From the NCBI GenBank assembly GCA_021731085.1, contig JAKFYB010000001.1, positions 1 to 64,000 of the forward strand: 64,000 nucleotides of DNA, given 5' to 3'. The position numbers and the translations under genes were made by a program. The notes beneath the pieces are model-generated. The model searched no databases, was not told the DNA's origin, and saw only the letters and a program-made list of their open reading frames with translations. Positions 11,370 to 12,856 of this stretch are shown piece after piece (position 1 is the stretch's first letter; every line of letters begins with the position of its first letter). This DNA is from Dehalococcoidia bacterium (GTDB lineage Bacteria; Chloroflexota; Dehalococcoidia; DSTF01; JACRBR01).

Positions 11370-11484
11370 TTCGCTTGTACGAACAGGGCGCGGCAAGCGG
11401 CGCCCCTACTGCATGATTAGTGGCGCTGTCGCATGTGGTCGCGGTGGTGCTTAGCGAAGATCCTTCGCTTCGCTCAGGATGACT
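11370..11484. repeat. Cluster of dispersed intergenic repeat units
   Basis: The gap between the kinase-like gene and the membrane protein gene contains GGGCGCGGCAAGCGGCGCCC and then AGCGAA...TTCGCT followed by CGCTCAGGATGAC (11453–11484). These look like degraded dispersed palindromes. The second unit supplies the stop codon and the last residues of the convergent gene. Confidence 0.4.
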
Positions 11485-12853
11485 CGTCCGGAGTCGGTCG
11501 GATTCTTCGCACGAGAACACCGACTATCACGGCGGCCCAGATGCACATCAGCGGCAAGATGGGCGCATGAAACCGCTGGTCGCCGAAGAACGCTACGTGC
11601 ACGATGGTCCAGTAGGCGACGACCGATAAAAGCAGGACGCCGGTTGCGTCGGTGCGCCATGAGCGCGCGCGGAGCCAGAGTGCGATGCCGACGACCGCCA
11701 TCGCCATGATGATGAAGTAGTAGCCGCTTGAGATGGCGGCGAGGGCGTTGCGGGTGCGTTCGGCCATGAAGGGACGCTCGCCGTGGCCGTCGGTCCAGGC
11801 GAGCGCTTCGTGGTCGCCGTTGTAGAGATACCAGACCTTCTTCACTGAGAGTTCGACCTCGCGCACGGGATTCTTGATCGCGAACTCGATGCCTTCGCGG
11901 AAGCCTTCGCGGTTGATACGCGCCTCCGCTTCTGGCTGCGGCAGTTCGGGATAGCGGAAGACGAGTTCATCCACGATGCGTCCGCGGCCTGTGGCGTCCT
12001 CGGAGTGCCCGATGTAGAAGTCGACGCCGGCGTTGGAGGAGAGCGCGACGAAGCTGTCGGACTCGATGTAGTTGCGGATCGTCCACGGAAGGACGACGGC
12101 GGCGGCGAGCGCGGTTGCTGCAGCGATCTTCAGGAGGAGGGAGCGGTGGCTGGACGGCACCTCACCCCCCGACCCCCTCTCCACGCCGTGGAGAGGGGGA
12201 GCTTGTTTCGCGGCTGTGAGCCAGAACGGGATCGCGACGAGCGGGAGCAGCATCGCTTGGCCGCGGACGAGGGCGGCGTAGCCGATGAGGAGCGCTGTCG
12301 CGATGCGGATGGGCCATGAGTTGTGTTCCTCGCCGAGCACGAGGAGGTAGAGCGCCGTCGTAAGCAGGAATGTGAACCATGTCTCGGTGAGGGTGACGCC
12401 GCTGAAGAAGATCATGCTCGGGAAGAACGCGAACAACGCGGCGGCGGCAAGAGGGGCGACCCTCACCCCCAACCCCTCTCCCTCAAGGGGCGAGGGGAGT
12501 CTCAGCCGGATGCGTGACGCGAGGGCATAGATGGGAATGCACGTCGCGGCGCCGATAACGGCGTTGAAGACGAGGGCGACGGTCACTTCGTGCGCGCTCG
12601 GCGTGATGCGATAGAGCGTCGAGAGGAGGAAGGGATAGCCGGGCGGCCAGAACATCGTCGTCGTGCCGTTGGGGTTGATGAAGCCGCCGCCCGCCGCGAG
12701 CGACTGGCCGAGAAAGTCGTAGCGTCCGGCGTCGTCGCTGAGGGTGGGCGTGAAGTCGGCATAGCCGATCCAGAGCAGGCGGATCACGACCGCGATGAGG
12801 ACGATGGCGCCGAGCGCGACGCGGTTCTTACCCACAGAGTTCACGGATGACAC
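11474..12853 (-). CDS. Polytopic membrane protein, ArnT/PMT-like glycosyltransferase family 39 type
   Basis: About 460 residues with some 10 hydrophobic segments. The first outer loop holds TLSDDAGRYDFLGQSLAAGGGF, which matches the DxDxxxY-type acidic loop of lipid-linked-sugar transferases such as ArnT/PMT, followed by MFWPPGYPFLLS. It probably moves a sugar from a polyprenyl carrier to an acceptor outside the membrane. The N-terminus is uncertain: GTG codons at 12853, 12844 and 12835 are all possible and a dispersed repeat covers this region. Two stretches, near residues 117–130 (PSPLEGEGLGVRV) and 218–231 (PPLHGVERGSGGEV), are encoded by copies of a palindromic repeat and interrupt loops between membrane helices. 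Confidence 0.75.
   Translation of the reverse strand: MSSVNSVGKNRVALGAIVLIAVVIRLLWIGYADFTPTLSDDAGRYDFLGQSLAAGGGFINPNGTTTMFWPPGYPFLLSTLYRITPSAHEVTVALVFNAVIGAATCIPIYALASRIRLRLPSPLEGEGLGVRVAPLAAAALFAFFPSMIFFSGVTLTETWFTFLLTTALYLLVLGEEHNSWPIRIATALLIGYAALVRGQAMLLPLVAIPFWLTAAKQAPPLHGVERGSGGEVPSSHRSLLLKIAAATALAAAVVLPWTIRNYIESDSFVALSSNAGVDFYIGHSEDATGRGRIVDELVFRYPELPQPEAEARINREGFREGIEFAIKNPVREVELSVKKVWYLYNGDHEALAWTDGHGERPFMAERTRNALAAISSGYYFIIMAMAVVGIALWLRARSWRTDATGVLLLSVVAYWTIVHVAFFGDQRFHAPILPLMCIWAAVIVGVLVRRIRPTPDESS
12160..12201. repeat. CCCCTCTCC palindromic repeat in frame in a membrane protein gene, copy A
   Basis: A perfect 12-bp inverted repeat, CCCCCTCTCCAC (12173–12184) / GTGGAGAGGGGG (12188–12199), preceded by CCTCACCCCCCGA. 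It is translated on the minus strand as a Gly/Pro/Arg-rich insert. Confidence 0.8.
12460..12503. repeat. CCCCTCTCC palindromic repeat in frame in the same gene, copy B
   Basis: CCTCACCCCCAACCCCTCTC is followed by an imperfect inverted GGGGCGAGGGGAG. The layout matches copy A (same CCTCACCCCC lead), but the loop differs. It is translated on the minus strand as PSPLEGEGLGVRV. Confidence 0.8.
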
Positions 12854-12856
12854 AGG
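12831..12856. repeat. Diverged CACAGAG-type repeat at the start of the membrane protein gene
   Basis: CCCACAGAG followed by TTCACGGATGACACAGG resembles the CACAGAG repeats elsewhere in the window. It overlaps the candidate start codons of the membrane protein gene. Confidence 0.45.

Follow-up and report, generated by a model that had tools for sequence, protein, structure and literature searches.

In-frame REP-like hairpins in a membrane-protein gene and their association with DUF559 nuclease genes

The host gene and its repeats

The window, the whole analysed stretch of 64,000 nucleotides from a Dehalococcoidia bacterium, carries a reading frame for a polytopic membrane protein that is interrupted by two palindromic inserts and flanked by further repeat-like stretches. 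The features of this locus are as follows.

11388–11409, minus strand: GTAG-type palindromic stretch GTAGGGGCGCC, downstream of the host gene
11463–11483, plus strand: second dispersed repeat family CTTCGCTTCGCTCAGGATGAC, containing the host-gene stop codon
11474–13003, minus strand: host open reading frame, 509 amino acids, an ArnT/GT-C-like polytopic glycosyltransferase as judged from its layout and relatives
12160–12201, plus strand: copy A, with lead CCTCACCCCCC, a linker, and a 12-bp perfect stem; minus-strand translation APPLHGVERGSGGEV
12460–12503, plus strand: copy B, with lead CCTCACCCCC and an imperfect stem; minus-strand translation LPSPLEGEGLGVR
12832–12855, plus strand: low-copy repeat-like stretch CCACAGAGTTCACGGATGACACAG at the probable gene start

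The host protein matches no Pfam family above threshold, gives weak matches to glycosyltransferase and STT3 models of NCBIfam, and has no relative in a plasmid search. Homology begins near residue 55, and the true start of the gene is therefore probably near 12840–12855.

Both inserts belong to a hairpin family with a CCTCACCCC(C) lead. Folding of copy A (CCTCACCCCCCGACCCCCTCTCCACGCCGTGGAGAGGGGGAG) yields the perfect 12-bp stem that an earlier, sequence-only reading had described, closed by a 3-nt loop, with a DNA fold of −14.7 kcal/mol (z −4.4) that none of 200 shuffles equals. Copy B folds to −9.0 (z −1.6), which is not significant alone. The two copies are read through in frame by the minus-strand frame, and the inserted peptides, PPLHGVERGSGGEV and PSPLEGEGLGVR, correspond to two different frames of this one repeat. 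Of the six frames of the family consensus, five contain no stop codon.

A search of genome contigs with the whole host protein confirmed no orthologue. A separate genome search provided, from relatives of the same family and order, orthologues and close homologues that are 54 to 35% identical to the host protein and can be aligned through both insert sites. Copy B is absent from all of them, leaving a gap of ~13 codons; copy A is absent in L034–L041, and a variable loop occupies its site in L032 and L033. The alignment to homologues thus bears out the view that the insert peptides are additions to this protein. The reading frame is intact, and on present evidence the gene is accordingly not a pseudogene, the alternative that had been raised for it.

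The repeats at the gene borders differ in standing. A repeat had been proposed to form the 3′ end of the gene, and the stop codon indeed lies within CTTCGCTTCGCTCAGGATGAC, which has 49 genomic copies at ≤3 mismatches and 0 in the control. A third repeat type had been placed over the start codon, which is a weak case: CCACAGAGTTCACGGATGACACAG is hardly repeated, and the genome holds one exact copy and two others with 3 mismatches.

A dispersed hairpin family

The 3.58-Mb genome contains 30 copies of the pattern CCTCACCCC-N2-8-CCTCTCC, and the reversed-pattern control gives 0, which secures the initial observation of two palindromic copies in frame in one membrane-protein gene. Clusters of the hairpin are common in the genome (four copies within 260 bp on C17, two within 120 bp on C1), so that two copies in one gene are not exceptional. 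The notion of this gene as a hot spot for repeat entry is accordingly a weak one, given that hairpin copies cluster elsewhere too and that the start-codon repeat is hardly repeated.

Among the 28 copies classified for coding context (copies 29 and 30 left out), four lie in frame between coding flanks. They fall in three genes, namely the window gene (two), an FAD-dependent oxidoreductase-like gene (one), and a FolC-like gene (one), the latter two names and the in-frame placement of their inserts being a reading of the sequences rather than a database match. These two genes, at L011:985-2367 and L014:573-2105 respectively, carry the repeat in frame as PHPPAPSPRRGEGE.

The repeat consists of a lead CCTCA-C(n), a linker of ~3 nt, and a stem C(n)TCTCC…GGAGA-G(n). 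The C-run of the lead tracks that of the stem (Spearman 0.72, n = 418; 0.70, n = 243, with one copy per locus), a correlation to which common descent of sub-families adds, and equal C-runs are usually separated by 3 nt. Leads match the mirror of their own stem better than do leads swapped between hairpins (4.18 vs 3.87, sd 0.05, 0/500). As a mirror of the pyrimidine arm of the stem, the lead may fold along the hairpin as a parallel intramolecular triplex. Neither GTAG nor CGTC stands at the hairpin foot in any of the copies listed; the lead CCTCACCCC is present in all, as the search pattern required.

Beyond this genome, the pattern occurs in 42 of 60 class relatives with up to 153 copies (G041). 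The exact 21-mer CCTCACCCCCGGCCCCTCTCC is found in records labelled as Bacteroidetes, Cyanobacteria, Acidobacteria, Planctomycetes, Akkermansiaceae, Spirochaetia, Armatimonadetes, Gemmatimonadetes, several Proteobacteria, Chloroflexi, and others. G436 carries many inverted doublets of the hairpin ~88 bp apart, with two linkers (CGG vs TTTAT), which resemble REPINs. These doublets and a palindrome-only insert in a MetH gene (L362, described below) are gene-free inverted pairs of element ends.

If the inserts were retained for regulation, as functional RNA hairpins or terminators, their location in open reading frames would be incidental. The stability of copy A as a hairpin would suit such a role, as would the lack of an in-frame coding context for most copies. 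Yet no T-run follows copy A or copy B, the copies are almost equally divided between the strands (16 and 14), and orthologues do without them; a regulatory role would also leave both the cross-phylum identity of the repeat and its linkage to DUF559 unexplained. This explanation is scarcely credible.

Linkage to DUF559 nuclease genes

Repeats of this kind occur beside genes annotated as “endonuclease domain”, and DUF559 (PF04480) was chosen for testing on that ground. Within 400 bp of DUF559, an exact hairpin is present in 13 of 24 relatives with a strong DUF559 match, as against 0.12 expected from genome-wide density (P ~2e-22). In a phylum-wide sample of 119 domains at 114 loci, exact hairpins occur in 64 of 228 bands ≤400 bp from DUF559 and in 2 of 217 bands 1.0–1.4 kb away; fuzzy copies are found in 119 near bands vs 2 distal, and hairpins with a stem of at least 8 number 0.92 per 300 bp near DUF559 vs 0.12 distal. 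The per-genome figure is to be preferred, because the phylum-wide sample holds related loci, such as one MetH insertion in several genomes. The reversed fuzzy pattern is unusable as a control near DUF559, since the element is partly mirror-symmetric.

The association also appears from the opposite direction, with 117 loci picked solely for the 21-mer containing 11 DUF559 genes, 10 of which have a hairpin close by. These ten genes come from Cytophagales, Gastranaerophilales, Prolixibacteraceae, Akkermansiaceae, Prevotella, Victivallales, a spirochaete, and others, and most are flanked by two inverted hairpins whose leads point outward; the lead-inward orientation is also seen at DUF559. Among 30 DUF559 loci of Alphaproteobacteria, the class of the Methylobacterium genome, a hairpin lies near the gene in 26 and distally in 7; these hairpins are again C-rich, of the CCCTCTCCC and CCCTCCCCC types. 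DUF559 genes without the CCTC type often bear another C-rich palindrome, and some bear none. Two DUF559 genes (L239 and L240) sit within dense arrays of other C-rich palindromes (TCTCCCCCCGC and CTCCCCGACACGGGGAGG). One alphaproteobacterial genome, G448, has eight DUF559 genes.

The RAYT (Y1 tyrosine) transposases offer the most familiar source of such repeats, and the copies might be ordinary REP/REPIN elements moved by a RAYT in cis or in trans. The short unpaired lead and hairpin and the inverted doublets of G436 conform to that type, and REPs inside genes are known (PMC3733652). Against it, the window genome (G000) and the 153-copy genome G041 have 0 matches to Y1_Tnp (PF01797), none of 30 Y1_Tnp loci of relatives has an exact hairpin copy, and the GTAG tag is missing. 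The absence of Y1 in both genomes and the lack of an exact copy at Y1 loci lead to the rejection of Y1/RAYT as the driver, and the REP/RAYT explanation as a whole is highly improbable.

The linked gene matches Pfam PF04480. Its profile retrieves from the PDB an endonuclease-like protein (3hrl, E 3e-27) and a mobile intron protein (3r3p, E 4e-4), the latter a Vsr-like homing endonuclease. Caulobacter VsrA is a DUF559 protein of the Vsr-like PD-(D/E)XK type that is a proposed mismatch-repair endonuclease and causes DNA damage in cells without a methylase (PMC12907096).

DUF559 and its palindromes also enter genes. Palindrome-DUF559-palindrome cassettes lie in frame in LeuRS, HsdR, MmeI-type and ISP-type restriction enzymes/methylases, DUF1156 methylases, and MetH. 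In two different Bacteroidota-type genomes, LeuRS has an in-frame cassette before the editing domain (L120 and L236), and a type I restriction HsdR (L202:4017-7814) has three separate in-frame palindrome groups, one of them with a DUF559 domain. In a DNA methylase (L341:59-3301), DUF559 lies between intein-like (Hint) sequences, where it may serve as the homing nuclease of an intein.

The MetH linker was read in 30 species of one genus (L354–L383). About 20 have a short linker without an element, eight have a cassette, one has palindromes only, and one has a remnant, all of the inserts being in frame. The empty linkers are too divergent among congeners for target-site duplications to be read. 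DUF559 in the MetH inserts keeps its conserved residues, with a dN/dS of ~0.09 at a largely saturated dS. This series and the in-frame cassettes in conserved genes indicate that the cassette is present or absent as one unit, and the solo copies of the window look like its non-autonomous form. The idea that the loops of the host protein tolerate inserts fits these data, in that the inter-domain linker of MetH took such a palindrome, and the same position holds a GTAG-type repeat in relatives L367 and L379.

That second repeat type, together with the presence of other families (CTCAGGATGAC and GTAG types) in the same places, is what would be expected if several unrelated nucleases or transposases spread such hairpins, with DUF559 as one passenger favouring the same insertion-tolerant spots. 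A shared preference of this sort is quite improbable in view of the 64 vs 2 near and distal bands of the CCTC repeat at DUF559 and its absence from Y1 loci.

A further alternative is that the palindromes are older and dispersed independently, and that DUF559, as a free-standing homing nuclease, enters sites between or beside them without moving them. DUF559 is related in sequence to the mobile-intron nuclease and in L341 lies inside an apparent intein, and many palindrome-rich genomes are without DUF559. However, different DUF559 genes carry different C-rich hairpins, and in genomes with few copies the bracketing ones are a large share of the total, both in G429, where two of the four bracket its LeuRS cassette, and in G433, which has six. 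Moreover, whole cassettes occupy a MetH site that most congeners have palindrome-free. An independent homing nuclease is unlikely on this evidence, although it deserves the most weight among the alternatives.

The distribution of DUF559 among the nearest genomes is uneven. No canonical DUF559 occurs in the window genome, which is 96.6% complete; its one weak match is a 737-residue frame without repeats, and a profile built from the relatives' DUF559 reaches a best E of 9e-4, in a long frame. The family relatives G004, G006, and G007 have DUF559 genes bracketed by the hairpin. Since the window genome is without a recognisable DUF559 and the driver remains in these three relatives, the window copies look like orphans. 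Other copy-rich relatives without DUF559 are G044 (21 copies), G046 (18), and G054 (27), and DUF559 presence predicts copy number modestly (medians 6.5 with vs 1.5 without, P 0.007). The lack of a clear DUF559 in the window genome and this modest correlation are the main weakness of a DUF559-based explanation.

A possible mobile element and its relation to known systems

The two inserts of the window are probably solo copies of a REP-like mobile hairpin, the autonomous form of which is palindrome-DUF559-palindrome and which DUF559 would mobilise. DUF559, with its PD-(D/E)XK/Vsr fold, would recognise the lead-plus-hairpin DNA and cut there, and repair or a single-strand DNA intermediate would bring copies of the element to new sites. 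Gene-free hairpins would be carried along, and the driver would have been lost from the window genome or would never have been in it. Insertions with a net length that is a multiple of three would survive in genes, mainly in linkers and loops, because five of the six consensus frames are stop-free. The sequence-only reading was right as to the in-frame entry of a dispersed palindrome into variable regions and missed the association with DUF559 cassettes.

A broader formulation, with chances somewhat less than even, envisages a pan-bacterial class of mobile elements whose hairpins, possibly in a triplex with their lead, are spread by DUF559 as a Vsr-fold nuclease and not by a transposase. Autonomous cassettes would enter genes in frame, and solo hairpins would give rise to new peptide segments in proteins across phyla. 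That the hairpin brackets DUF559 suggests that a type of bacterial mobile element exists that had not been recognised before. A search of openly licensed papers returned none that links DUF559 to repeats or palindromes, and an earlier description elsewhere is possible.

How short palindromes spread where no mover is known has been raised as an open question: the CGTC-type REPs “apparently lack a dedicated transposase”, according to a 2013 survey of GTAG and CGTC palindromes (PMC3733652). The question of the mover becomes directly testable with a palindrome of many phyla that is tied to a specific, abundant, and little-studied nuclease family. If true, the proposal would give DUF559 a role and extend the REP-like world by an enzyme that is not a transposase. 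It would also explain the recurrence of the peptides LTPNPSPxGEG or PSPLEGEGxGVR in unrelated proteins, as well as the presence of entire nuclease domains within core enzymes, LeuRS and MetH among them.

Four known systems invite comparison. Caulobacter VsrA belongs to the same domain family, DUF559, but has been studied as a repair protein, in a paper that mentions no palindrome (PMC12907096). The Vsr-like (EDxHD) homing endonucleases (3r3p) share sequence homology with DUF559 and are likewise selfish nucleases in conserved genes; unlike them, DUF559 resides in cassettes that have no intron and are usually palindrome-bracketed, and non-autonomous palindromes are abundant. The CGTC-tagged REPs and the Rickettsia palindromic elements (RPE) are also palindromes inserted in coding sequence, and the RPE-like trait of an in-frame insertion that orthologues lack is seen in the window gene and in the MetH series; here, however, the sequence is another one and a candidate enzyme is linked to it. 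In REP/REPIN with RAYT (TnpA-REP), too, a short hairpin carries an unpaired 5′ tag and occurs as dispersed copies and inverted pairs; the repeat brackets an enzyme gene, is found elsewhere as solo copies, and is occasionally inserted in genes. In contrast to that system, the tag here is CCTCACCCC rather than GTAG, the enzyme is a PD-(D/E)XK/Vsr-fold DUF559 rather than an HUH Y1 transposase, and genes such as LeuRS and MetH harbour whole enzyme cassettes in frame.
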